From positions 1-28,402 of the IMG/VR virus record IMGVR_UViG_3300031997_000048: a DNA stretch of 28,402 nucleotides. The stretch is one strand, 5' to 3'. Each line of letters begins with the position of its first letter. The first letter of the stretch is position 1. The position numbers and the translations under genes were made by a program. This stretch comes from a virus. Shown here in pieces: positions 10,617 to 28,354 of the stretch. Under the pieces are notes generated by a model. That model did not search any database. It worked only from the letters and a program-made list of their open reading frames with translations, and was not told where the DNA came from.

Positions 10617-12038
10617 CTACTCGAAAATGATGGACAGATCCGTAGGATTCTCGACCCTGACCGTAAGCGGATGAGTCACTTCGGCCCCGCCATTGTCCTG
10701 ACCGCCGTCATCCGAAACCCGGCAATGGAGCGCCAAGAAGGTGATCTTGTTGCCCGCCGTCGCGCCCACGCGGGCGAGCCAGAAAAGGTCCGTGCCGCTG
10801 CCCTGGTAGGCCCGAAGATTGCGGGTGGCGTCCAAGACCTCCAACGGTGACATCGTGATCTCCGGATTCTGGCCGAGAATCTTGGCCAGATAATACCCGC
10901 CATGATTGTAATTCGGAGGATTGTCCACGTTGTTTCCGAGCTTGAGTTCCACGTCGCCGAAAATCATTTCCGGCTCGGAGGCCCCGACCAGGATGCAGCC
11001 GACGTTTTCAAGGGAAATGGCGGCATAGGTCGTGCTCTTTTTCTGGCTCTGCTGCGCCCCAACCGCACAGGCGATGGTGCCGATCTTGATGTAATTGGTG
11101 TCACTCCCCGTCCAGTCGCCTTTGAGGACAACGTGGTAAGGAGTGGTCCCCGCGCATGTCGGCGGCGTGGCGAACTCCAGAATTGTATACTGCTTGGTCG
11201 TGCTGATAAGCGTGGTGAGTATTTTGGCGGTCGTGCCGTTGGTAATCGCCGTTCCGCTCGGGTCGCCGGTTGAATCGGCCTGAATCTCCGCCCAGAATCC
11301 CAAAGTTTCGCCCGCCGGGGTGCCGACCTTTTGGGTTATGACCACCAGGTATTTCGGTTTGAAGGCCGCGGCCTGGTTGATGGTGACGGCCAATTCCTCA
11401 CCGACTCCCGTCGCCATCCGCAACCCCTCGTAATCGGAGCCGGAGGGCAGAGCATATACGTTATCGGAATGGTGTTCGAGCAGGTACATGGCGCCGATGG
11501 TGAGTAGCGGTTTCGGGAAATCGCTCGGATCCGCCAAGGGATTTTCGTCGCCCGTGGCGACGAGCCCGCCCTTGCCGGAATAATCGAGGCCGAGAAGTTC
11601 ACCGGCCTTGAATTTGAAAGAGCCGTCACCCCGGAGGCCGAGGCCGGTGAGATATTTCCCGCCGACGTTACCTTTGGCCGTTCCCGATCCCACCGATGAA
11701 ACGGAAGGATCGGCCACCCCCGTATAAGTCACCCGATGCCCGGAATCAGCGACTTCGGCGAGGGCCAGGCTCTCCAGGATATCGCCTAGGATGGTGTTCG
11801 GCGTGCCCGGCGTGCCGCTCCCCTTCATCTCGAACGTGCCGGTTAGTTCAACCTCTTCCGATCCCCTGATAGGAACCAGATCGGGAGTGACGTTGCGAAG
11901 CACGTTTCGAGCCTGGGGATGGGAAACGATTTTCAGCTTGCCATCCTTGATATAGATGGCTTCCGAAGCGGTGATGGTTTCGGCCGTCCCCGGCGTGGTC
12001 TCTTTTTTGAACGCGAAACTTCCGATCTTTGATAACAT
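10617..12038 (-). CDS. Major tail tube protein, 473 residues
   Basis: The N terminus (SFAFKKETTPGTAETITASEAIYIKDGKL) and VPIRGSEEVELTGTFEMKGSG are typical of siphophage tube proteins that build the inner beta-barrel ring. The C-terminal strands (PEMIFGDVELKLGNN, EITMSPLEVLDATRNLRAYQGSG, TFLALHCRVSDDG, HPLTVRVENPTDLSIIFE) complete the barrel. Residues about 150-330 form a long Gly/Thr-rich insert (VVITQKVGTPAGETLGFWAE, DSTGDPSGTAITNG) likely to be an extra domain on the tube surface. At 473 residues it is about twice the length of simple tube proteins. It uses the GGAGGATAC leader and directly precedes the tail chaperone gene, as in lambda-like gene order. Confidence 0.8.
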   Translation of the reverse strand: MLSKIGSFAFKKETTPGTAETITASEAIYIKDGKLKIVSHPQARNVLRNVTPDLVPIRGSEEVELTGTFEMKGSGTPGTPNTILGDILESLALAEVADSGHRVTYTGVADPSVSSVGSGTAKGNVGGKYLTGLGLRGDGSFKFKAGELLGLDYSGKGGLVATGDENPLADPSDFPKPLLTIGAMYLLEHHSDNVYALPSGSDYEGLRMATGVGEELAVTINQAAAFKPKYLVVITQKVGTPAGETLGFWAEIQADSTGDPSGTAITNGTTAKILTTLISTTKQYTILEFATPPTCAGTTPYHVVLKGDWTGSDTNYIKIGTIACAVGAQQSQKKSTTYAAISLENVGCILVGASEPEMIFGDVELKLGNNVDNPPNYNHGGYYLAKILGQNPEITMSPLEVLDATRNLRAYQGSGTDLFWLARVGATAGNKITFLALHCRVSDDGGQDNGGAEVTHPLTVRVENPTDLSIIFE

Positions 12039-12836: not shown

Positions 12837-15410
12837 CTAGGAGTTGTCCTCCGTCTCGTAAACATTGATGGTAACGGCCACGTCAGAGGGCTTGGCGGCG
12901 GGGAAAGCGGCCAGAGCCGCTGCCGCGTCTGCCTGCACATCAGCATCCTTGGGGACGGGATAGGCCGTAAGCGCGGCGGCGGCGCCCGCCTGGGCGGAGG
13001 TCTGGACGTCGGCCGCCTTCGGCACCGGGAAGGCCGTCAGGGCGGCGGCGGCGCTGGCCTGGACATCGGCGGCCTTGGGCACCGGGAAGGCCGTCAGGGC
13101 GGCGGCAGCGGCGGGTTGGAGTTCGGTGGTTTTTGCCAGCAGTCCGACCGGGGTGGTGAGGTCGGGCGCGTCGTGGAGGTCATCGAGTTGCTGTTTCGTC
13201 CCGGTGATCTTGACGGTCTCGCCGTCGAGGGTGGCCTTGAGGTCCTGCTCGCCGGTCCCGGCGGCAAAAGAGAGCTTGGCAGTTTTGAGTTTGATGTCGT
13301 CCACCACGGTCTTGACCGCAGCCAGCGGGGTGGTGAGATCGGGCGCATTGTGCAGGGCGGTTATATCCGTGGTGAGGGCGACCCCGGTGAGGTCGGCCAC
13401 GATAGGCTGCGGGTCTGCGCCCGCCGCGAATTTGAGGTGGTCGGTTTGGGACTTAATTAAAGCAATCGCTTTTCCAAAAGAACCAGAATCATCATTGGTC
13501 ACTAATAGTGCCCCCCAAACCTGATCAGGAATGCCTAAACAATGTTTCAGAATTGCTCCAGCTTTATCACTCTCTATAATAGTAGGAATCACATAATCCC
13601 ATAAAGCATAAGGGATTTTATCCAAACTGCTAGTAGTACAATTATAATCGGCTCCGCCATTGTCATCTACCATTTTTGTCAACATACTCGCCAAAGTAGC
13701 AAGACCGGGAATATCCCCGTGAATATCCAGCGCAACCGGCGTCCCGATAGCGGCCTTGATGTCGTCCACGATCCCATCCACCGTGGCGAGCGGAGAGGTC
13801 AGGTCGGGCGCGTTGTTGAGGTTGGCCACCGACGCGGCTCCGGCCAGGTAGTTGGTCGGGAGCTTGTTGACCACCTTCGCCAGTTCCGTTGCCAGGGCCA
13901 TTGTGCCGGAAACGTCGGGCGCGTTGTTCAGCCCGGTAATCGCGGCCTTGATCTTATTCTGGCTGTCAAACTCGGCATTAAACGTCGCGCCGTTGTTGTC
14001 GTCCGCGAGCTTTTGCAGGTTGCCCGCAAGCGTGGCCGCGCCGCCATCGAAAGCAACCGGCGTCCCGACCGCCGCCTTTATTTTATTCTGTGAATCCGTC
14101 GTAGCATCAAAGGTCAAACCGCCATTATCGTCGGCCAGCTTTTTAAGGTTGTCCGCGAGGGTCGCGCCCCCGCCGTCAATGTTCGCCGGGGTGCCGAGCG
14201 TGGCGATAATCGCCGCCGTATCAACCTTGACTGCCGCCACCGCTATTGATAAAAGCATGTCCGTAATAGTACAATTAACAACATTAACACAATGCGTCAA
14301 GGCACTACCGTACCAGTTATAAAGCGGTCGGATTGAAGTCGAAGCATCTACATCGGTAAAGATGGCCCCAAAGATTTTACAGTTATCAACCGGCCCCTGA
14401 TAATTGAGGTTAGCATAATTAGGGCTTGTACCGGACTTGAGGGTAACGGTCCCCGCATCGGGGGCACTGGAGATATAAATTAAAGTTGAAATCGAAACGG
14501 TCGTCCCGGCAGCCCAGGTAAAGGATAAGGGACCGGCACTTGTTGCATAACACTTAAAATTGGTTATCGCTACATTAAACGCTCCGGCAAAAGTCATGTT
14601 ATAGGCAGTTTGAGTAAAGTTGATAGCATCGAAGTTTGTGGTCAAGGTAACGATGGACGTTGCTCCTAAGTTAATTGTATTCCATATCAGGGCCGCGCTT
14701 GCCATAGTGCAGTTACCAGATATATTTAGGATGGGAGTGGAAGCGAAAGTTATTGCCCCTGCCGTATAAGTAAAAGTTCCCGTTTTGTATTGCACCGTTC
14801 CTGAGAAAATATAGTCAGTACAATTAACGGTCATGCTGTTTGAAACGGAGAAGTTTCCCGACCAGGTTCCACCCGAGCCTCCCAGGATCAGCACCGTCGT
14901 TCCCGAGATGGCGATGGCGAGAGTAAATCCGCCGTTCATTGTCCAGGTATGGGCGAGGTTAGCGGAGTTCAAAACCAGGGCGTTGGAAATTGTAGTCACG
15001 CCCGTTATGATCCAAGAGTTTACCACTGCCACCGTCCCGGTAATGGCAAAGTTCACGGCTCCGGGAAAGGTCAAGCCTGCGCCATTGGTCAAGGTAGCGG
15101 CCGCATTTATTTTCAGCGTTCCCGTTCCCGATAAAGTCATCCCGGCAAAGAAGGTCACGCTGCCGGAAACAATCAAAATTGTGGAAACGGCGAAAGCGAT
15201 ATTATTATTGGCGCTCTGGCAGGTGACGGTTTTGGCAAGGCTGGTGGTAGTCCCGACCACGGTCACGGCCGCGACGGCCCCGGCATCAAAGATACAATCA
15301 TCGCCAGCGCCCGGAATCGTGCCGGACGAAGCACCAGCCGAAGAAACCGTCCGCCAGGTCCCTATCGTGGTCCAGTTACCGCCGTTAGTCCAAGCGTAAA
15401 GTGTTGCCAT
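12837..15410 (-). CDS. Mosaic fibre-like / beta-solenoid structural protein, 857 residues
   Basis: Residues 1 to about 350 are repetitive Ser/Thr/Gly/Ile strands (TLSGTGTLKINAAATLTNGAG, TMNGGFTLAIAISGTTVLILGG) typical of a parallel beta-solenoid. Residues about 395-560 hold repeats of the type KAA(V/I)GTP...LADDNGG. Residues about 571-656 are a non-repetitive insert (IPYALWDYVIPTIIESD) on AT-rich DNA. Repeated NAPDLTTP modules follow, then four copies of a 19-residue repeat (AAAALTAFPVPKAADVQ) at residues about 765-845. A GGAGGAG site precedes the ATG. The repeats suggest a fibrous trimer, perhaps a neck or head fibre or receptor-binding protein, since the gene lies in the head-tail joining region rather than at the tail tip. 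Function is inferred from composition and context. Confidence 0.65.
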   Translation of the reverse strand: MATLYAWTNGGNWTTIGTWRTVSSAGASSGTIPGAGDDCIFDAGAVAAVTVVGTTTSLAKTVTCQSANNNIAFAVSTILIVSGSVTFFAGMTLSGTGTLKINAAATLTNGAGLTFPGAVNFAITGTVAVVNSWIITGVTTISNALVLNSANLAHTWTMNGGFTLAIAISGTTVLILGGSGGTWSGNFSVSNSMTVNCTDYIFSGTVQYKTGTFTYTAGAITFASTPILNISGNCTMASAALIWNTINLGATSIVTLTTNFDAINFTQTAYNMTFAGAFNVAITNFKCYATSAGPLSFTWAAGTTVSISTLIYISSAPDAGTVTLKSGTSPNYANLNYQGPVDNCKIFGAIFTDVDASTSIRPLYNWYGSALTHCVNVVNCTITDMLLSIAVAAVKVDTAAIIATLGTPANIDGGGATLADNLKKLADDNGGLTFDATTDSQNKIKAAVGTPVAFDGGAATLAGNLQKLADDNNGATFNAEFDSQNKIKAAITGLNNAPDVSGTMALATELAKVVNKLPTNYLAGAASVANLNNAPDLTSPLATVDGIVDDIKAAIGTPVALDIHGDIPGLATLASMLTKMVDDNGGADYNCTTSSLDKIPYALWDYVIPTIIESDKAGAILKHCLGIPDQVWGALLVTNDDSGSFGKAIALIKSQTDHLKFAAGADPQPIVADLTGVALTTDITALHNAPDLTTPLAAVKTVVDDIKLKTAKLSFAAGTGEQDLKATLDGETVKITGTKQQLDDLHDAPDLTTPVGLLAKTTELQPAAAAALTAFPVPKAADVQASAAAALTAFPVPKAADVQTSAQAGAAAALTAYPVPKDADVQADAAAALAAFPAAKPSDVAVTINVYETEDNS
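13021..13106. repeat. Tandem repeat in fibre gene (57-bp period)
   Basis: A 29-base segment starting GGCACCGGGAAGGCCGTCAG occurs exactly at 13021 and 13078, encoding successive AAAALTAFPVPKA units of 19 residues. Two more diverged copies lie on the left side down to about 12850. The exact identity of the two central copies suggests recent expansion or slippage. Confidence 0.75.
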
Positions 15411-15566: not shown

Positions 15567-16181
15567 TTATGACCTCTTCGCCGCCGCCCGCAGCGCGTCC
15601 ATGACCGCCTTTGTGGTCATTTCCCGAATCTCATTTTCATTGATGGCCTTGCGGGCATAGGCGAATGGAACGCGGCCCGGGAGTACGCCGCGATACTTGC
15701 CGTAAACCGGATGTGACTTTTTAGTATAGCGTCCGCCGGGAACGGCGGAACGGGTATCGGCCAGCGATGGGCCATATTTCATTTTTGATGCTGTCCACAT
15801 TTTATAGGTTCCATCCTCATTCATCCGAGCCTTGTAAAATCTATGACCGGCAGCGAAGCCGACTTCCACGCGGGCATAACCGCCCAATTTTTTCGCGCCC
15901 GATCTTTTGAAAATCCAGTCGCGGGTATGTCCATATTTTCCCGGCCCCACCCCGAGCGAATGAGGGCCGCGTCCGGAATATCCGACCGCGATAACCCTCC
16001 GCCGCACCTGCGATGCCATACGGGAAAACATACGCTTCATTAAGAAATTGCCTTGCTTCAATGTTCCTTCCTTGCAAAAGGAAACGAACGAGGCCAGGCT
16101 CGCCGGATCAAAGCCCATCTGTAAACTCGGGGCATTGGAGCCGCCCATGCGGATCGTGCCGGTGAAATTGACCGCCTGCAT
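15567..16181 (-). CDS. Neck protein, HK97-gp10-like, 204 residues
   Basis: Basic protein starting MQAVNFTGTIRMGGSNA, with a helix LASFVSFCKEGTLKQGNFLMKRMFSRMASQVRRRV near the N terminus and VPFAYARKAINENEIREMTTKAVMDALRAAAKR at the C terminus. Between them is a Gly/Tyr/Lys-rich strand region. This order (N-terminal helix, beta region with Arg/Lys, C-terminal helix after a P-FxxxA pattern) is that of HK97-gp10/neck or tail-completion proteins. The start is set by the TAATG overlap with the connector gene; a much longer open frame to 16616 is Arg-rich shadow. It follows the connector and precedes the tail terminator, as expected. Confidence 0.68.
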   Translation of the reverse strand: MQAVNFTGTIRMGGSNAPSLQMGFDPASLASFVSFCKEGTLKQGNFLMKRMFSRMASQVRRRVIAVGYSGRGPHSLGVGPGKYGHTRDWIFKRSGAKKLGGYARVEVGFAAGHRFYKARMNEDGTYKMWTASKMKYGPSLADTRSAVPGGRYTKKSHPVYGKYRGVLPGRVPFAYARKAINENEIREMTTKAVMDALRAAAKRS

Positions 16182-17068
16182 TAAAATCGCCTCACCCGAT
16201 GCCGCTCCAAGAGCCGGAGGTTGCGATTCAGCCAGCCGCCGGGAGGAACCCACGTTACCCCCACCCCGCCGACATTCTCGCTCACGATCCCCTGCCGCGC
16301 CCGCATGGTCCAATCGTTTGCGGTCTGGCCGGCGATGGCCGACGCGATCAAAGGCCAGTCGTGAATGATGCTCGTCCCGTTGGAATCCAGGACGTAAAAT
16401 CTTTGATCCGTGGTCGACCCGGAGGTAAAGGCCGCCGTCACGGTCAACTGCGTTTCGGATTGAACCGACAAGACGGTCCAGGTGGTCGGAGAATTTAATC
16501 CATTCAGGATTTTCAGCTTGCACCCGGCAACCACGCCGTCGGTAACAAAACTCCCGACTGCCGAGGTGAAAACGCCGATACCGCCCGCGCCGGTGTTGGC
16601 GCTCGCCCCATCCCATCCCCAGGCCCCGGTGATCGTGCCCAGGCCGCCGGTGTAAACGATTCGGAGAGCCTCGATCAGGTTCCCAAACTCGCTCTCGATA
16701 TAGACCTCTCCCCGCGCCGCCCGATCCGTCCCGAGAAAAATATCCTCCGCATCAACCAGGTCGGCGGCATTGGTCCACACCCGCGGCGTGTCCTGATTGA
16801 TCCGGGCGATGATTCCAACTACGGTATCAATCGGCGGCGACGAAACGTAAAAAGATTTTTGACCGGGCCGAATGTCCAGGGTTTCCGTCCGCGACTTCCG
16901 GACGATTCCCCGATTCATGATGAGCATAGCCTCATAGGATAACTCGGCTATCCTCTGCCGTATCAAGGAATCGTCCGGGGACTTGGCTTCGCTGCGGGCA
17001 AGGAGCGGCCACACCTGCTGGAGCGCGCACAGGTTCAATACCGTTTCCATTTTCAGCGGTTCGCTCAT
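16181..17068 (-). CDS. Head-tail connector (gp6-like) with inserted domain, 295 residues
   Basis: The first 140 residues are helical then stranded (SLIRQRIAELSYEAMLIMNRGIV, TETLDIRPGQKSFYVSSPPI, EALRIVYTGGLG), typical of connector proteins binding beneath the portal. The last 65 residues resume with a helix and WTMRARQGIVSENVGG. Between them, residues about 145-230 form a Gly/Thr/Val-rich beta module (GVFTSAVGSFVTDGVVAGCKL, TTWTVLSVQSETQLTVTAAF) apparently inserted into the connector fold. Position between head and neck genes supports the role. It overlaps the neck gene by one base at TAATG. The family call is moderate; the inserted module is visible as a change of composition. Confidence 0.65.
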   Translation of the reverse strand: MSEPLKMETVLNLCALQQVWPLLARSEAKSPDDSLIRQRIAELSYEAMLIMNRGIVRKSRTETLDIRPGQKSFYVSSPPIDTVVGIIARINQDTPRVWTNAADLVDAEDIFLGTDRAARGEVYIESEFGNLIEALRIVYTGGLGTITGAWGWDGASANTGAGGIGVFTSAVGSFVTDGVVAGCKLKILNGLNSPTTWTVLSVQSETQLTVTAAFTSGSTTDQRFYVLDSNGTSIIHDWPLIASAIAGQTANDWTMRARQGIVSENVGGVGVTWVPPGGWLNRNLRLLERHRVRRF

Positions 17069-17093: not shown

Positions 17094-18545
17094 TTATCGG
17101 GACGCGATGGTCGCGCCCGCGCTCAATCGCTTCCAGACACAGTTGATGATGAAGGTGCCGCCGGCGTTAAAGGTCTGCGTGTCGGCCCGGATGTAGATTT
17201 TCTTGCCCGAGGCCAGCACCACGTGGCGGCCATAGACGGTCTTGGCGATGGTGTTGACCGTGGTGGTTCCGGTGGTGACTCCGACAATGGTAAAGGTATA
17301 ACTGTCCATGCTGATCGTATCCTGCGCGGTCAGGCTGGTCTGAATGATATGCATGAACTGGTCCGTGCCCTTAACGTTGTCGGTGTAGAACTCCAAGGCG
17401 GCGGTCCCGTTCGCCGACGCCAGCGCGGTCGCGCCCACCTGAATAGTAACGTCCATCAGCAATAGGGTGCCGGAGGCCGCGCCGGTCAAGGCCATGCCGC
17501 CAGTAGCGATGGAAGCGCCAGCCGCGACGGTCGTGGTGGTATAGAAAACAGTTCCGATCGGCAAAACGGTTTCGAGTGTAGTGCCGATCATCTCCGGAGC
17601 CGCGCCGTCGGTGGTCACCACATAATTGCTGAACCACGAACAGGCCGCGGCGACGATGGCGGCGTCAGGGTTGGCCAGGCTGGTACTCTCAATCTCATTG
17701 TCAGCCAAGATGCCGGTCGTGGCCGCCGCCAATTCGATTCCCGGCTCCTGGTCCTTGATCTTGATCCGGTTATCGAGAATGTTAATCTCGGTAACCGCGG
17801 TCGTGCCGTCAATGATGGCGGCGGTCGAGTAGTTGCCGTAAAAATAGTTGTCCTCGATGCTGGTCCGCGCCACGGCTCCACCCATGCCGAGATTGATGGC
17901 CGCTGTGCATGAGGCGTCGGTGATGGCAGTAAAAAACTTGTTGCCACGGATGGTAACATCGTCGGCTCCGGTATTCAGTTCCACCGCCACAACGAACTCA
18001 TCCGTGCCGCTGGCTTCCCCAACGGCGAACTCGCAATTCTCGATCAGGGCATAATCGCCCGCGGCCTCGATGGTGATGCCCAGGGCGGTCGAGGTAATTC
18101 CCGGTCGGAATACCAGATTTTTCAGGGTGACGTTGGCGGCCCCGATGGTCGCCGTCGAATCGGCATAATTGTAATCGAAGCGCGGACGGTCCGATCCTGA
18201 CCCAAGGCCAATGATCGAAATGCCCGCCACATCAGCATCAAAGAACTGCGTCGCGGCGGCTCCCTCCTCGACGTGCCCCGGCATGACGTAGATCGTGTCG
18301 GCCTTGTTATCGGTACAGAGGCCGATGGCATAGTCAACCGTGCCGCACGGACGGGACGGGCTTCGGCCGCAACTGGCATAGTTGGAGCCGACCACGCTTG
18401 ACACATAGAACACCGACCCCGGCTCGGCCGCCTTGTCGATCCAGATCAGGTCGCCGCCTACCTGCCGGTAAGTCACCAGGGCGCCGATGCTCAGGCTGGC
18501 GATGATAACCAGCATGGCGGTCAAAAGCGAAACTTTCTTATTCAC
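17094..18545 (-). CDS. Right-handed beta-helix protein with N-terminal signal/membrane segment, 483 residues
   Basis: Starts with GTG after AAGGAGGATACGAAC. The first 27 residues (NKKVSLLTAMLVIIASLSIGALV) look like a signal peptide or membrane anchor, unexpected for a virion protein. Residues about 45-320 show pectate-lyase-type beta-helix coils: FYVSSVVGSNYASCG, ADTIYVMPGHVEEG, ISIIGLGSGSDRPRFDYN, NVTLKNLVFRPG, YALIENCEFAVG, DVTIRGNKFFTAI, RTSIEDNYFYGNYS, EINILDNRI, GILADNEIES. Residues about 330-483 form a separate beta domain ending FIINCVWKRLSAGATIASR. No obvious catalytic triad of Asp/Glu can be assigned. Located between the capsid group and the connector. It may be a secreted or surface-exposed head fibre or depolymerase-like protein; function inferred. 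Confidence 0.72.
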   Translation of the reverse strand: MNKKVSLLTAMLVIIASLSIGALVTYRQVGGDLIWIDKAAEPGSVFYVSSVVGSNYASCGRSPSRPCGTVDYAIGLCTDNKADTIYVMPGHVEEGAAATQFFDADVAGISIIGLGSGSDRPRFDYNYADSTATIGAANVTLKNLVFRPGITSTALGITIEAAGDYALIENCEFAVGEASGTDEFVVAVELNTGADDVTIRGNKFFTAITDASCTAAINLGMGGAVARTSIEDNYFYGNYSTAAIIDGTTAVTEINILDNRIKIKDQEPGIELAAATTGILADNEIESTSLANPDAAIVAAACSWFSNYVVTTDGAAPEMIGTTLETVLPIGTVFYTTTTVAAGASIATGGMALTGAASGTLLLMDVTIQVGATALASANGTAALEFYTDNVKGTDQFMHIIQTSLTAQDTISMDSYTFTIVGVTTGTTTVNTIAKTVYGRHVVLASGKKIYIRADTQTFNAGGTFIINCVWKRLSAGATIASR

Positions 18546-23219: not shown

Positions 23220-23410
23220 TATCGGGTCCTCCCATGAGGCAAGGTGTCAAGCCACGATTCCAACCAGGCATCGGCCAGGATGATGGCGCCAAGGGTAAGC
23301 AGGGCATGGGGCAGGCCGAAAAGAAGATACGTGCCAGCGCCGATCAGGATCAGCGCGGCGAGAGCGCGGGCGAGGATTTGGAGGCGTGCGGCCACTTCGG
23401 TTCGTTTCAT
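23219..23410 (-). CDS. Small membrane protein between terminase and portal, 63 residues
   Basis: Reads MKRTEVAARLQILARALAALI, then two hydrophobic stretches (ALAALILIGAGTYLLFGL and ALLTLGAIILADAWL) separated by a short Pro-containing turn, and a short polar end. The charged amphipathic start plus helical hairpin is typical of small phage membrane proteins often found between terminase and portal genes, with unknown function. Its ATG overlaps the terminase stop (ATGA), and its own stop overlaps the portal start by one base, so it is locked into the translational chain. A GAGGAT box precedes it. Confidence 0.65.
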   Translation of the reverse strand: MKRTEVAARLQILARALAALILIGAGTYLLFGLPHALLTLGAIILADAWLESWLDTLPHGRTR

Positions 23411-25281
23411 CTTCCATCCTCTGAAACGGTATCATGAACTACCCGGCCATCTTTGTCAAGCCGGGGAGCTTTTTGGGCGTAAACCGACTGCCAGGCCGGG
23501 GCGTCTTTCACCTCCGCCGTCTCTATTTTCCCTAGTATATTGCCATTTCCATCCAGCTTCGGCGCGGGCTGTGCATAGGGCGAAACCTTGTCCGCTGCCG
23601 TCACCAGCCGCGACAGCGCCATGATCGCCGCGACCGTGCCGTCAATTTTCAACTCGCGCTTCTTGGAGCGGACCGGACGGCACTGCTTCCCCGACGCATC
23701 CTGCTGAAGCACGGTGTTGCCGGTCATCCAACGAAACACCGGGTTGCCGCCGTGATTGATTTTCCGCTCCGCTATCCGTTTCTCAAACTCGATGCAGGGC
23801 GCGGTCATCTGATCGTAATTCTGCCTGACGGTGACAATATCAAAATGCTCTTCCTTGATAAGCCGTTGACAAAGGCCCTGCCCGTCAAAGGTCGTATCCG
23901 CTCCGATCTGGCGAATGCCCAGGGGGACACAGATGCGCTTGATTCCATGCAAAAGCGTATCGTCGTCCATAACCTCGCCGGGCGTGGTGATGATGAATCC
24001 CCTGCCAATCCACTCCTCATACCGCTCCCGGTAAACGCCGCTTGATCGCCACGGCCCATTCTCCGGCACCCATAAATATGGAAAAATGATGGTCCGGCCG
24101 CCCATGACCCATTCGAGTACCAGGGCGAAGAAGTCATCGGTCCGGGCGATGTCGAGGCCGGCGAAGATGGCGTTGCCCTTCATCCGGGCCTCCATGTAGT
24201 CGCGCCAGTCCTCCGGGTCCGTCGGCTCGCCCGGCGACGGCCCGCACTGATCCCACTTCCCCATGTCAATCCACATGGTCTCGGATTCGGTTCGATAGTT
24301 GCAGTTCAACCGGAAAAAAGTATTGAGGTACGACGGCATCTTTTGCGCGTTGCCCCAGGCCTCCAACATATTCGATTCAAGTATGGAAGTGCCGAGGCCG
24401 GGATTGGCCTTGCGGAAAATGCCGAGCAGGGTTTCACGGTCGCCCTCGCCCGGCTTCAGCCCGCGCAGAAAATTGATGTCCGGCTCATCCACCTTATAAA
24501 TGATCGGGAGGAAGTAGGGATCGTCAACCGTCCCGTCAATAATCTGCTGCGCATAATCCTGAATGTCGTTGCAGATCGAAACCTGGTCATAATCGGAGGT
24601 GGTAAGGTAAAGGCAGAGGGACTGCTTGCGTTTCATCAGGCCCGCGACGAGGGTATCAACCAGGTCGCGCTCGACCACATGCAATTCGTCAATGACTACC
24701 AGGTTCGGAATCTTGCCGTGTTTCGTCTCGGCCTTACTCGAGAGGATGGAGAAAAAGTCCGGCTTGCCCTTGAGCTTGATTGACCGCTTCCAAGGCTCAC
24801 ATCGCTCCGCCAACCAGGGGTCGTCAAGCACCTGCTCCTTGGCGATCCCGAAAAGCATGTCGGCGGTTTCAGCGTCGGCGCTGGCAACGAATATCTGCTT
24901 GCCCGCCTCCGGGTCCTTGGTCAGAACCAGCAGGGCAATCGCCGCCGCCAGGGTGGTTTTGGAATTGCCCTTGCCGATGAAATAAAGCGCCTTGCGATAA
25001 CGCCGGGTGCCGTCGGCGCGCTTCCATCCAAACAGGTTGGCAACCAGGGCCTTCTCATGCGCGCCCAGGATGTAGGGCCGGTGGCCGAGTTCGCCGCTGA
25101 CGTGCTTGAAATGTTTTTCGATCCACTCGATAGCGACGGCGGCATTGCCCGCATCAAATACGAGTTCCAATTCCGCCGCTCCACGGCAGGGATCGTAGTT
25201 GGGAACGGCGCGGATGATGGCGAGCCATTCGGCGGGAATATCGGCGGGAGCATAGAGCAGCTTCGGCTTGGGTTTAGTCAT
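23407..25281 (-). CDS. terL: Terminase large subunit, 624 residues
   Basis: DNA-packaging motor and nuclease. The ATPase has Walker A GKGNSKT at residues 103-109 (FIGKGNSKTTLAAAIALL) and Walker B LVVIDE at 194-199, with a coupling-type LTTSDYD after residue 226. The nuclease domain shows GLDIARTDDFFALVL (Asp377), IGADTTFDG (Asp462) and ELKIDGTVAAIMALSR (Asp547), the three acidic positions of an RNase-H-like fold. Length is normal for the Terminase_1/HK97-like group. The start at 25281 overlaps the upstream ParB-like stop by four bases (ATGA). Unusually, it is separated from the small subunit by a four-gene cassette. Confidence 0.93.
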   Translation of the reverse strand: MTKPKPKLLYAPADIPAEWLAIIRAVPNYDPCRGAAELELVFDAGNAAVAIEWIEKHFKHVSGELGHRPYILGAHEKALVANLFGWKRADGTRRYRKALYFIGKGNSKTTLAAAIALLVLTKDPEAGKQIFVASADAETADMLFGIAKEQVLDDPWLAERCEPWKRSIKLKGKPDFFSILSSKAETKHGKIPNLVVIDELHVVERDLVDTLVAGLMKRKQSLCLYLTTSDYDQVSICNDIQDYAQQIIDGTVDDPYFLPIIYKVDEPDINFLRGLKPGEGDRETLLGIFRKANPGLGTSILESNMLEAWGNAQKMPSYLNTFFRLNCNYRTESETMWIDMGKWDQCGPSPGEPTDPEDWRDYMEARMKGNAIFAGLDIARTDDFFALVLEWVMGGRTIIFPYLWVPENGPWRSSGVYRERYEEWIGRGFIITTPGEVMDDDTLLHGIKRICVPLGIRQIGADTTFDGQGLCQRLIKEEHFDIVTVRQNYDQMTAPCIEFEKRIAERKINHGGNPVFRWMTGNTVLQQDASGKQCRPVRSKKRELKIDGTVAAIMALSRLVTAADKVSPYAQPAPKLDGNGNILGKIETAEVKDAPAWQSVYAQKAPRLDKDGRVVHDTVSEDGR

Positions 25282-25835
25282 TTAATTTTCTCGTTCAAAA
25301 CATCCTTGCGGGCGACGGAAAACGTGGCCCCGCACTCGGGACAGGATAGGCTGATCATGCTCTCGGCCTCTTGCCCCGCTCCGCCCACATCATCGAAGCG
25401 GGCGGCGGCGCTTTCGGATTCTGCCCGCGCCTGCTCGTTAGTTACCGCCTTATTCCCTACCCCGATAAGATTGTCAATATCTTCAAAGAATACTTTGAAG
25501 TCAAAGGCGTTGTCTATTTCCCGCAATTCCGGGATAAGTTTATCCCAATCCCATTCGGAAAATTCACTGGTTCTATTATCCGCTATCCGATATTCCTTTA
25601 CCTTGCCGGGCGGCAGGTCCACTATAACGCAGTCGGCCTCATCCATTCCCAGATTCATCAATGCCCGGTAACGGGTATGACCGGCGATGATGGTCAATTC
25701 CCGATCCAGGATCAAGGGAGTATTGAAGCCAAACCGCTTGATTGATTCCTCCACCGCCTTGACCGCCCGCTCATTCTTTCGCGGGTTACGCCAGTAGGGT
25801 TTTATCAGCGCCAGCTTAATCTTTTCCGTTTGCAT
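25278..25835 (-). CDS. ParB/sulfiredoxin-fold protein, 185 residues
   Basis: The N-terminal 95 residues match the ParB N-terminal (ParB/Srx) fold: IKLALIKPYWRNPRKNERAV, FGFNTPLILDRELTIIAGHTRYRAL with the nucleotide-contacting GHTRYRA motif at residues 52-58, and a final strand ADCVIVDLPPGKVKEYRIADNRTSEF. There is no ParB-type helix-turn-helix after it, so it is not a canonical segregation ParB. The C-terminal part holds a CPEC pair (165-168), half of a possible zinc ribbon. Phage relatives are often annotated as ParB-like nucleases. Its ribosome binding site (AAGGAA) lies inside the upstream gene, which it overlaps by 20 bases. Confidence 0.8.
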   Translation of the reverse strand: MQTEKIKLALIKPYWRNPRKNERAVKAVEESIKRFGFNTPLILDRELTIIAGHTRYRALMNLGMDEADCVIVDLPPGKVKEYRIADNRTSEFSEWDWDKLIPELREIDNAFDFKVFFEDIDNLIGVGNKAVTNEQARAESESAAARFDDVGGAGQEAESMISLSCPECGATFSVARKDVLNEKIK

Positions 25836-26379
25836 CTTGCCATTCCTTTTTCAGCCGTATCTGCCGGGTCGTTTCCCACGCCTTACGGTATTCCGTATTT
25901 TCAAAGAGCTTGGCGAACCCGGAAATATATTTCATGCGGACCAACTCGTCGGCCTCCATGCCAAGATCCCGGCAGATGGCGGCATCGTCCATCCCGTTTT
26001 CAAGCATGTTGAAAACCATGTTGCTCATCCCGGCGACGGAGTGCTTTCCCCGCGCCCGGTTATGCCTGATGGTCGAGGCCATGCGGTCATTGATCGGCTT
26101 GTCGATCACCACGACGGGAAGTTCGCCCCCGGTCCGCTCATAAATATCGGGATAAAGTTTCATCACCAGGTGCCGGTGAAAGCCGTCAACGATGATATAC
26201 TTATCCGTAATTGAATCGTAAACGCAGACAACCGGCTGCGTATAGCCGTCATGGAGGATGGAAGTATAAAGTAAATGCAGTTCATTGTCGGCGACGGAGT
26301 TGGGGTTATAATCGTTCGCCTGCACCTGGGCGAGCGACACCCACTTAACGCCCGACACCGGCTGGTCATCGTGGTTCAA
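25816..26379 (-). CDS. IbrB-like ParB-fold protein, 187 residues
   Basis: ParB/Srx core: WVSLAQVQANDYNPNSVADNEL, GYTQPVVCVYDSITDKYIIVDGFHRHLVMKLY with DGFHRH (65-70) at the nucleotide-binding position, and LPVVVIDKPINDRMASTIRHNRARGKHSV. The RHNRARGKHS segment followed by a helical region with SNMVFNMLENGMDDAAICRDLGM (helix-turn-helix-like) and a final helical part is the pattern of IbrB proteins, which pair with DUF3440/IbrA enzymes. The start is a TTG with a GGGAG box; no better ATG is available. It lies just after the 113-aa protein (14-base overlap) and downstream of the IbrA-like gene. Confidence 0.78.
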   Translation of the reverse strand: MNHDDQPVSGVKWVSLAQVQANDYNPNSVADNELHLLYTSILHDGYTQPVVCVYDSITDKYIIVDGFHRHLVMKLYPDIYERTGGELPVVVIDKPINDRMASTIRHNRARGKHSVAGMSNMVFNMLENGMDDAAICRDLGMEADELVRMKYISGFAKLFENTEYRKAWETTRQIRLKKEWQDANGKD

Positions 26380-26707
26380 CTATTGACTCCCGATTGATGA
26401 TAAAAGTTTCCGGCTCCGTTCCCCGATGCGGATGTCCGGCGGGATAGATCGGGCACCCCATCGTCCAGTATTTCCATCCGTCGAGTTCAAGATAAACGTG
26501 AACCTTTTTGAAAAAAGGTTTAGGGTCGCCCTGGTCCCGGATGAATTGAGCGAACCAGCAGAACTCCGCGTCGAACTCCGGCATCTTATCCCTTACCGTG
26601 TACCAATGAGGGAAGGTCTTGGCATAGGTCTTAGCCCACACCCAAGGCACGGACGCGATGTAGGCGCGGGCGCGATCCCAATCAGGCTTCGGCGGCAAGC
26701 TCGGCAT
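26366..26707 (-). CDS. Hypothetical protein of the IbrAB-like cassette, 113 residues
   Basis: A compact, aromatic-rich protein: ARAYIASVPWVWAKTYAKTFPHWYTV, EFDAEFCWFAQFIRDQGDP, KKVHVYLELDGWKYWTMG, and the end PETFIINRESIVEPR. The strand KVHVYLELDGWKYWTMG and the FIINR end look like a small alpha-beta enzyme-associated domain. I recall related standalone domains in phages but cannot name a family or activity. The gene begins inside the 3' end of the IbrA-like gene (26-base overlap) and overlaps the IbrB-like gene, so all three are likely translated together and may work in one complex. Confidence 0.6.
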   Translation of the reverse strand: MPSLPPKPDWDRARAYIASVPWVWAKTYAKTFPHWYTVRDKMPEFDAEFCWFAQFIRDQGDPKPFFKKVHVYLELDGWKYWTMGCPIYPAGHPHRGTEPETFIINRESIVEPR

Positions 26708-27815
26708 TCGCTTTCTCTTTCAATTCAATCCGCAACTGGCACCGGCCCGGCGCGTCATCAAAGTTTTTCAGCTTGATCCCTTCCCAGTCATTCGTAAGTA
26801 TAGACTGAATTTGCATCTTGTAAAGTTTATCCCCGTACTCGCCCCGATAGGCTTTCTCTTGCGAGTCGATCTTCTTGCGGAATCCGGCCCGCCATTTCGG
26901 GTTAGTGAATAAATGCTCTAACAAATAATCACGGTATTCTTTCCAGGATGAGAACATAAAGGGCAAGGTCCGCTGAAAGTAATCGGCCTTTCCCATCTTG
27001 CCCGCCATGTCGATCCCCGATATTCTTTGACACAACCGCTCATAGGTAGCGGGTTCAATTTCTTGCAAATAAAAAAGGGAGTGGACCGCCGTTTCATGGT
27101 GGACATTAGAAACCCGCATACCAGAAACCGGCACCCCATATTGATACATTAAGTCATATATCCTATTATACGGCCACTTATTACAATGAATTGCTTTCCA
27201 AACGTCGGTGTAACTCCAATCGTAAATAGGATAGAAAGTATAATGCCCGCGCTTCTTGTCCTCTACCTTCCCCCAGGTAGCCCACTTATAGGTCCGATAT
27301 GAAGTCAACCCAAACGCCCGTGACGGTGACTCTTCCGCCCTAACTCCCGCAAGGTGACAGGCCGGAGACGAAGGGAAGTCGTGAACCATGAATGCTTTAA
27401 ACATATCATGGAAGCGATCCTTCCCATATACGTTTTCCTTTATCGAGATAGGGTCTTTGGGCCGCATCCAACGGGCCTCTTCTTTCGGGTCCCAACAGTT
27501 AAGCCAATGCTCCTCTACCGACGTGGCATTAAACAGCCGGAAGGGAATCTGATACCACAAAGGAAGGACATCGGGCCGGTACATGATCTCGCGCACGGTG
27601 TCCGCCGTCGCTTGCCACTCCGCCTCCTGGTCAAGCCACATAACCCGGAGCGGCAACCGGCCCCGCTCTTGCGCCACCATCATCGCTAGATTGAAAATAA
27701 CCGTCGAATCCTTGCCGCCGGATATGTCAATTACTATATTTTCAAACTCATCGAATACGAAGCGGATGCGTTTCAGAGCTTCATCAAAAACGTTGGTTGA
27801 CTTATAAATCTTCAT
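26682..27815 (-). CDS. PP-loop PAPS-reductase-like enzyme (DUF3440/IbrA type), 377 residues
   Basis: An ATP-pyrophosphatase (PP-loop) signature IDISGGKDSTVIF has SGGKDS at residues 32-37, as in PAPS reductases, DndC and IbrA. Later family features are MWLDQEAEWQAT, ACHLAGVRAEESPSRAF (157-163 core GVRAEES), YPIYDWSYTDVWKAI (195-209) and RVSNVHHETA (234-243). These fit DUF3440, the family of E. coli IbrA, better than a cysteine-pathway PAPS reductase. Chemistry is adenylation of a substrate via ATP; the substrate is unknown. The start overlaps the small-terminase stop (ATGA). With the two ParB-fold genes it forms an IbrA/IbrB-like cassette. Confidence 0.83.
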   Translation of the reverse strand: MKIYKSTNVFDEALKRIRFVFDEFENIVIDISGGKDSTVIFNLAMMVAQERGRLPLRVMWLDQEAEWQATADTVREIMYRPDVLPLWYQIPFRLFNATSVEEHWLNCWDPKEEARWMRPKDPISIKENVYGKDRFHDMFKAFMVHDFPSSPACHLAGVRAEESPSRAFGLTSYRTYKWATWGKVEDKKRGHYTFYPIYDWSYTDVWKAIHCNKWPYNRIYDLMYQYGVPVSGMRVSNVHHETAVHSLFYLQEIEPATYERLCQRISGIDMAGKMGKADYFQRTLPFMFSSWKEYRDYLLEHLFTNPKWRAGFRKKIDSQEKAYRGEYGDKLYKMQIQSILTNDWEGIKLKNFDDAPGRCQLRIELKEKANAELAAEA

Positions 27816-28354
27816 TCAAGGTCCGGCTCCTCTTCCGGAACTTCCGACACCGGCAGCGCCTTCACCCTCACCCGATCACTCGGCGTCAACCCGAACGTCG
27901 CATAAGCCCGATCCAATCTCTCCGTCAACCGGATCAACTGAGCGAACTCCGGCCGCTCCTCATACCCCAACACCGGACCCGGCTCCCAGCGGAGCTTGCC
28001 ATCCTCATCCATCACCCGCTCCGACTTGCCCCTGATAGGGCGATTCAACTGGACCGTCTCCGAATCCTTCGGATACAGCCGGTCCCGGGTGGTGAACCAC
28101 ATAGCCTCCAACTCGCACAGCCTCACCAACGCCCCAACGTCGGCGCGGGTCATAACCTGCAAGCCGTCCGGCCCCACCCGCCGAGCAACACGCTTCCAAA
28201 CCACCCGACCCGCCGCCGTCAACTCCGCCGGCGGACGCGGCAGGCAGGTTTCAAGCTGAGGCTCTCCCTGATCTTCCCGCGCTTTGCCGCGCCACGAGCC
28301 GCGCATGTCCAGCACCTTCGAGGGGGTGCTCAATGGACCGTGCCTACCACTCAT
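27812..28354 (-). CDS. terS: Terminase small subunit, P27-like, 180 residues
   Basis: Recognises phage DNA and starts packaging with the large subunit. It begins MSGRHGPLSTPSKVLDMRGSWRGKARE, close to the 'LRGN' leader of P27-type small terminases, followed by the helical DNA-binding part PPAELTAAGRVVWKRVARRVGPDGLQVMTRADVGALVRLCELEAMW. The middle carries RPIRGKSERVMDEDG and the end has the helix PEFAQLIRLTERLDRAYATFGLTPSDR typical for the family, with an acidic tail. A GAGGTCAGCC box precedes the ATG. It is followed directly by the IbrA-like gene rather than by the large subunit. Confidence 0.78.
   Translation of the reverse strand: MSGRHGPLSTPSKVLDMRGSWRGKAREDQGEPQLETCLPRPPAELTAAGRVVWKRVARRVGPDGLQVMTRADVGALVRLCELEAMWFTTRDRLYPKDSETVQLNRPIRGKSERVMDEDGKLRWEPGPVLGYEERPEFAQLIRLTERLDRAYATFGLTPSDRVRVKALPVSEVPEEEPDLE

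Follow-up and report, generated by a model that had tools for sequence, protein, structure and literature searches.

Gene content of the terminase block

The IMG/VR virus record IMGVR_UViG_3300031997_000048 comprises 28,402 bases, is probably a fragment, and was analysed at full length (hereafter, the window); our subject is a set of four genes that separates its small and large terminase subunit genes (TerS and TerL). The minus-strand order is TerS, IbrA/DUF3440, p113, an IbrB-type ParB, a second ParB-fold protein (ParB2), TerL, a 63-amino-acid (aa) protein, portal, S49 protease and capsid. A P27-type TerS (27812–28354; PF05119, 8.3e-8; phrog_83, 1.2e-9; TIGR01558, 9e-8, under cut-off) opens this overlapping chain. 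It is followed by IbrA, a 377-aa PP-loop enzyme of the N-type ATP pyrophosphatase/adenylyltransferase fold (26682–27815; PF01507, 8.5e-15, 55.6 bits; PF11922/DUF3440, 5.3e-10, 39.8 bits, both above curated cut-offs; phrog_2302, 7.8e-84), and by p113 (26366–26707), a 113-aa member of a conserved family that matches no library entry and yields a confident alpha+beta model. IbrB (25816–26379; 187 aa, TTG start; phrog_2159, 3.7e-72) joins a ParB/Srx NTPase-fold domain to a KorB-like helix-turn-helix (HTH) in its model, and ParB2 (25278–25835) matches phrog_620 (3e-43), phrog_498 and the PADLOC model MTase_II. The chain continues into an HK97/P27-type TerL (23407–25281; PF03354, 3.7e-25; PF20441, 2.3e-23; phrog_9, 1.6e-112).

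From TerS to TerL, successive genes overlap by 4, 26, 14, 20 and 4 nt in the junction sequences. An earlier reading of this DNA (hereafter, the original prediction) had proposed this gene order and these coordinates, and both are borne out by open reading frames, domain matches and overlaps at all five junctions. The four inserted genes have a GC content of 49–55%, below that of TerS (64%) and TerL (58%; window, 58%), which fits acquisition. The accompanying premise that TerS and TerL normally adjoin was seen in two of the three distant TerL relatives inspected for TerS position (~30% identity), the third having no annotated TerS. The window TerL, used as a scan query, retrieved no viral relative and hence no closely related empty site.

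The window shares with the known IbrA/IbrB pair (a DUF3440 PAPS [3′-phosphoadenosine-5′-phosphosulfate] reductase-like protein plus a ParB-like protein) both proteins, their adjacency and their motifs (the PP-loop SGGKDS in IbrA; DGFHR and NRAxGxH in IbrB). It differs by the presence of p113 between the two, ParB2 after them and a location inside the terminase block. The IbrB-type identity of the partner near IbrA is confirmed by phrog_2159, with p113 intervening in the window.

Recurrence and terminase linkage of the gene set

This gene set recurs in other viruses (L-numbers below label relative loci from our scans). When viral contigs were first scanned for relatives of the window IbrA, 10 were returned, with IbrB next in all 10, ParB2 in 7 and p113 in 6; a distant TerL (25–28% identity) was present in 3, several contigs stopping short. 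A wider IbrA scan was sampled as the best 80 of 324 relatives and a p113-seeded scan as the best 80 of 116, so the frequencies given here describe those best-scoring samples. Of 90 IbrA-seeded viral loci (window included), 85 have IbrB no more than 1.5 kb from IbrA, and 37 have p113 no more than 4 kb away. The p113-seeded scan added 78 new viral loci, of which 77 had IbrA within 4 kb and the exception ended ~300 nt past p113; their 71 full-length rows form 28 groups at 75% IbrA identity, and some contigs repeat the IbrA-seeded set. IbrB and ParB2 were each found in 42/45 non-redundant p113 loci. Omitted from these analyses were L004 (the same contig as L020), IbrA outside 300–520 aa (from the tree only) and, from the IbrA-seeded co-occurrence and TerL-distance counts, phage records L011–L019 and genome loci L178–L230. 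IbrA relatives occurred in 215/50,697 phage records overall.

Proximity to TerL is a consistent property of loci that carry p113. In non-redundant viral contigs where TerL was found or at least 4 kb lay downstream (rows with <4 kb downstream and no TerL being left out), TerL lay within 5 kb of IbrA in 38/40 loci with p113 vs. 14/30 without; the Fisher p of 1e-5 is descriptive only, as the rows share ancestry. Demanding at least 4 kb downstream of all rows gave 29/31 with p113 vs. 6/22 without. In all 35 p113 rows with a TerL detected by local profiles, that gene is downstream on the same strand. The terminases near IbrA belong to at least five PHROG families: phrog_9 (window, L003), phrog_2 (L031, L006), phrog_15 (L085), phrog_979 (L021, L159) and phrog_38 (L025, Hendrix), with no p113 detected in L006, L025 and L085. 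Candidate TerL frames of L047 and L151 had no PHROG match, and that of L161 was counted as TerL on a weak one (5.6e-4).

Random placement of the cassette in related phages, an outcome that would have told against the original prediction, was therefore not what we found in the p113 clade. The exact order that it had proposed for survey (TerS-IbrA-x-IbrB-ParB-TerL) fared less well: the cassette recurs near TerL, while the positions of TerS and p113 differ. In the relatives examined (L003, L006, L028, L055), TerS sits downstream of the cassette, beside TerL, which makes the TerS-cassette-TerL order of the window unusual; likewise, p113 lies upstream of IbrA in 46/49 non-redundant p113 loci, the window being one of the 3 exceptions.

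Isolated phages display comparable arrangements, e.g., ParB-x-x-IbrA-ParB-terminase in mycobacteriophage Kamiyu, ParB-IbrA-ParB-methyltransferase-TerS-TerL in Arthrobacter phage Wheelbite and TerL-x-x-x-ParB-IbrA-x-portal in Flavobacterium phage FCL-2. The record of Microbacterium phage Hendrix, isolated on M. foliorum NRRL B-24224, carries a glycosyltransferase, a methyltransferase (in which the profile detects a p113 domain), an acetyltransferase and IbrA at its right end, whereas its left end holds the terminase together with an HTH gene and three ParB genes; as this genome is reported to be circularly permuted (PMC7302621), the two sets are contiguous.

Several side observations concern these regions. 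The TerL frame of L010 (1841–4504) is 887 aa long and seems, by eye, to contain an intein- or homing-endonuclease-like insertion. In L231 (Streptococcus phage Javan113; 1–1958), adenine- and cytosine-methyltransferase genes immediately precede TerS-TerL, so that a different DNA-modification set takes up the same terminase-side position. A second IbrA-IbrB context (L058–L098), with an SNF2-type helicase (by eye) upstream, accounts for 14/53 p113-less loci and also occurs in Flavobacterium phages FCL-2 and 6H. Within the window, four long minus-strand frames of the capsid-tail interval (10617–12038, 12837–15410, 15567–16616, 17094–18545) had no PHROG match to 1e-3.

Properties of the core proteins and the variable slot

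The window IbrA retains the ATP-site motifs of its family: SGGKDS (32–37), D62/E64, GxRxxESxxR (157–166), PxxDW (196–200) and R234. Across 92 non-redundant IbrA sequences, S32, S37, W108, P196, D199, W200, Y220 and R234 are invariant, and K35, D36, D62, E64, R159, E162 and R166—all present in the window—are kept in 91. Cysteine, on the other hand, peaks at 59/92 in its best column (i.e., there is no conserved cysteine), such that the catalytic cysteine expected of PAPS reductase (CysH) is absent. Profile matches to PDB sequences are to FAD synthase (8e-10), CysD (2e-8) and CysH (2e-4). A kept ATP site with no conserved cysteine fits AMP transfer and speaks against sulfur transfer, so that IbrA may be an AMP-transferring rather than a sulfur-transferring enzyme, as judged from residue conservation. 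A role as PAPS reductase in sulfate assimilation was rejected both for the missing cysteine and for the weakness of the CysH models: NCBIfam CysH/PAPS models match only residues ~153–225, far under cut-off, and the NCBIfam scan gave no match of the window IbrA to the CysH C-terminal model.

Both ParB-fold proteins have features of DNA-associated proteins. In sequence, IbrB matches Noc/ParB (5.5e-7 to 1e-4), and its model (predicted local distance difference test [pLDDT] score 85.6) finds KorB, ParB and Noc as structural matches, with KorB at Z 14.0; residues 99–154 superpose on the KorB DNA-binding domain with Z 9.7 and an rmsd of 1.0 Å over 56 residues. Weaker matches, to SerK, SbnI and sulfiredoxin, cover its N-terminal part. 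IbrB thus resembles a ParB/Srx NTPase fold joined to an HTH, and on its model is a predicted, KorB-like DNA binder. ParB2 matches the DNA methyltransferase family phrog_498 over residues 1–131 (7e-33) and PADLOC MTase_II over residues 1–115 (1e-20), i.e., it is a standalone version of a ParB domain otherwise fused N-terminally to phage DNA methyltransferases; by eye, its C-terminal CPECG tail is zinc-ribbon-like. A simple partition system was rejected, there being no ParA among the scanned window proteins and two distinct ParB-fold proteins flanking the enzyme set.

No match to p113 was found in Pfam, PHROGs, NCBIfam or PDB sequences. Its AlphaFold2 model, from a 26-row alignment, is well determined (pLDDT 90.3; predicted TM-score 0.83), and with a best Foldseek E of 0.56 and a best VIA Z of 4.2 there was no confident structural match by which to name the fold. 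Three tblastn queries against phages found nothing; the profile alone found p113, in Hendrix. In bacterial genomes, p113 occurs mostly without IbrA (48/52 loci having a p113 frame) and in fusions with GmrSD_N (2e-34), NUDIX (5e-20) and EEP (8e-8) domains (fusion loci L199, L212, L229, L190–L197). Cleavage of modified phage DNA is reported for GmrSD enzymes (PMC12409352). p113 is perhaps a modified-nucleotide recognition domain. Bacterial p113 also occurs in frames with a class I methyltransferase region, probably fused. Six flavobacterial-type loci (L192, L194, L202, L210, L211, L213) carry it behind a conserved N-terminal region, a recurrent chromosomal architecture; we take this region to resemble DUF488, and L192, the member searched against Pfam, has no match there to 0.01.

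Between p113 and IbrA, or nearby, lies a slot whose enzymes vary from phage to phage. Of 45 non-redundant p113 viral loci, 42 had either a recognised slot enzyme no more than 3 kb away or a p113 frame of 190 aa or longer, the window being one of the 3 with neither. Library matches identify glucosyltransferases (phrog_854; 1.9e-15, 1.1e-6, 4.1e-5), GNAT acetyltransferases (phrog_1249, down to 1.3e-7), a GT2 glycosyltransferase (PF00535, 1.8e-6), a class I methyltransferase fused to p113 (PF13649, 8.8e-10), a DNA-methylase-like protein (PF01555, 2.3e-4, under cut-off), an AdoMet decarboxylase fused to p113 (PF02675, 5.4e-11) and a saccharopine dehydrogenase (1.5e-13); the labels GT, GNATm and MTc4 are library-verified for few members only, and the family OG29 is presumably oxygenase-like (by eye), the members tested having no library match. 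On a quickly built tree of the 92 IbrA sequences, p113 changes state 9 times (shuffled mean 30.9) vs. 21 for GNAT, 20 for methyltransferase and 18 for glucosyltransferase, indicating that the core is stable and the slot turns over quickly.

A candidate DNA-hypermodification cassette

The swappable glucosyltransferase-, GNAT- and methyltransferase-like neighbours, the KorB-like IbrB and the methylase-type ParB2 point to DNA modification. We put at about even the chance that the four genes make up the conserved core of a cassette for hypermodifying phage DNA bases, sited beside the terminase genes; from these features we infer the DNA substrate, the modification chemistry and its benefit. Under this model, IbrB and ParB2, as ParB-type NTP-binding proteins of which IbrB has a KorB-like DNA-binding domain, would bring the complex to phage DNA. 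The PP-loop site of IbrA would split ATP into AMP and pyrophosphate and adenylate a group on a DNA base for attachment of a nucleophile, while p113 would be an accessory domain or one that reads the altered nucleotide, recognising or presenting the product. That product would then be elaborated by the one to three additional enzymes (glucosyltransferase-, GNAT-, methyltransferase- or oxygenase-like) that most relatives carry; the window phage would be a minimal form, any tailoring enzyme being encoded outside the 28.4-kb fragment. The likely benefit would be packaged DNA shielded from host nucleases. A bolder version, which we hold tentatively and at somewhat less than even odds, is that this is a new pathway in which cysteine-free IbrA and KorB-like IbrB install a common activated handle on DNA bases one step ahead of packaging, the hypervariable slot (glucosyltransferase, GNAT, methyltransferase, oxygenase-like or AdoMet-decarboxylase enzymes) makes phage-specific bases, and p113 is an undescribed modified-nucleotide recognition domain, also fused to bacterial GmrSD-type restriction enzymes and NUDIX hydrolases.

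The closest tested precedent is the CmoA-CmoX-CmoY system of phage S-B43. CmoY, an asparagine-synthetase homolog, is described as an ATP-dependent ligase joining glycine to carboxymethylcytosine in DNA, for which adenylation of a carboxyl on the DNA cytosine is proposed, and ParBc-domain proteins are often encoded near CmoX (PMC12783734). The likeness would lie in an AMP-forming, ATP-dependent ligase acting on DNA, a methyltransferase partner and ParBc proteins in many neighbourhoods; the difference lies in the asparagine-synthetase ancestry of CmoY and, in the portion of that account available, in no IbrB or p113 being reported for the S-B43 system (PMC12783734). CmoA itself seems unlikely as a slot enzyme, in that the seven class I methyltransferases tested, from 7 relatives, matched no CmoA model (NCBIfam to 1e-3), and the window cassette carries no methyltransferase. 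The 5-hydroxymethyldeoxyuridine-derived hypermodification of phages M6, ViI and others reportedly follows the same handle-then-tailoring logic as proposed here; no kinase or transferase gene of that pathway turned up in the cassette, no genome-wide search being made.

Several observations weigh against a DNA-modifying role. No modified base is known for any phage carrying the cassette, and the substrate of the slot enzymes could instead be RNA, protein or a small molecule. The window itself has no slot enzyme, and recognised slot enzymes also lie near IbrA in 28/53 loci without p113 (vs. 28/37 with it). A Mom-like GNAT was rejected, the PHROG matches being to acetyltransferases and not to the Mom-like family. 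The PDB matches of IbrA span motifs only (35 and 67 profile positions), and IbrA relatives occur in 586/72,556 plasmid records. A paired tree test of p113 against TerL linkage found 5 independent pairs and was not significant. Finally, TerL lies 8–30 kb from IbrA-IbrB (distances derived from contig ranges) in p113-less L008, L015, L058, L062, L066, L069, L090 and L093, and in Streptococcus phage CHPC1230, E. coli phage PhiR5_2 and Rhizobium phage L338C the pair lies near lysin, antirepressor or ribonucleotide reductase genes, away from the terminase.

That last placement is what one would expect if IbrA-IbrB acted on gene expression, or on an RNA or nucleotide substrate, and the terminase-side position only gave late transcription. 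In records of relatives and in published annotations, IbrA/IbrB are called co-activators of prophage gene expression. KorB, which IbrB resembles, is a transcriptional repressor. This explanation leaves unaccounted for the swapping slot, p113 and the close association of the p113 clade with TerL, and we consider it unlikely, if worth taking seriously. The two ParB-fold proteins beside TerL, with ParB, KorB and Noc as the best structural matches of IbrB, would also suit a non-covalent packaging factor in which IbrB and ParB2 act as NTP-gated clamps marking DNA for the terminase and IbrA supplies or consumes the nucleotide ligand. Such a factor seems improbable, given that it leaves IbrA and the slot enzymes unexplained and that IbrA-IbrB persist in phages where they lie far from the terminase. 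The original prediction had tied the cassette to packaging through its start/stop overlaps; such overlap is commonplace in phage operons, and the IbrA-IbrB genes of other clades lie far from detected terminases or have no detected one at all, so that coupling to packaging is not obligatory. The cassette may act at the moment of packaging, and its terminase-side position would suit late expression just as well.

The low GC of the cassette and the plasmid-borne homologs of IbrA would be natural for a mobile moron, or a defence or counter-defence passenger with no tie to packaging or modification; the non-random, same-strand site upstream of TerL in diverse phages and the overlap with both terminase reading frames make that decidedly improbable. 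Highly improbable, to our judgement, is sulfur chemistry, in which IbrA, as a sulfurtransferase resembling DndC/SspD or CysH, would make phosphorothioate or thio-bases. Weak matches to DndC (2.9e-7) and BrxP (1.4e-8) favour it, and Dnd likewise combines a PP-loop enzyme (DndC) with a ParB-superfamily protein, DndB (PMC10853773). Unlike Dnd/Ssp proteins, IbrA has no conserved catalytic cysteines, nor has it a CysH C-terminal match; with the NCBIfam DndC equivalog model it scores 28.5 bits against a cut-off of 290.4, and a similar cysteine loss made others doubt phosphorothioation for the type IV-B CysH (PMC8175902); DndD/DndE and SspB/SspC did not turn up in the window protein scans, which included no search aimed at them. 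We therefore rejected phosphorothioation or sulfur transfer as the principal explanation. Of the DNA modification or marking foreseen by the original prediction, what stands is a recurring, terminase-linked unit whose neighbourhood points to modification, and what finds no support is its suggestion of backbone sulfur.

A further parallel is the cysH-like protein of type IV-B CRISPR systems, a cysteine-less PP-loop protein proposed to AMPylate (PMC8175902). It differs in setting, as csf genes lie near IbrA in 0/37 p113 loci. Among our loci, csf2/csf3-like genes (by eye) and a cysH-like PP-loop gene stand beside IbrA-IbrB in L008 (2868–7649), L009, L061, L065, L066, L074 and L091; we take these to be Csf2/Csf3 by eye, the members tested having no library match. 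These neighbours link IbrA-IbrB with a type IV-B-like setting, and an additional family, c10, joins such loci and occurs in 12/53 p113-less loci.

The literature searched, mostly without subscription papers, yielded no account of a terminase-side IbrA-p113-IbrB unit, of its variable enzyme slot or of a DNA-modification role for IbrA/IbrB; phage PAPS-reductase-like proteins are annotated in published papers as metabolic genes. For the substrate of IbrA/IbrB, the variable slot suggests a testable guess, i.e., that the product is formed on phage DNA and then elaborated. If true, the cassette would supply modified DNA bases from a source so far unmapped, together with a ready-made group of enzymes, the closeness of IbrA-IbrB to the terminase in one large clade would be explained, and p113 would become a domain to seek in systems for modification and anti-modification alike. 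There could be implications, too, for the cysteine-less CysH-like protein of type IV-B CRISPR, a neighbour of IbrA-IbrB in some contigs.

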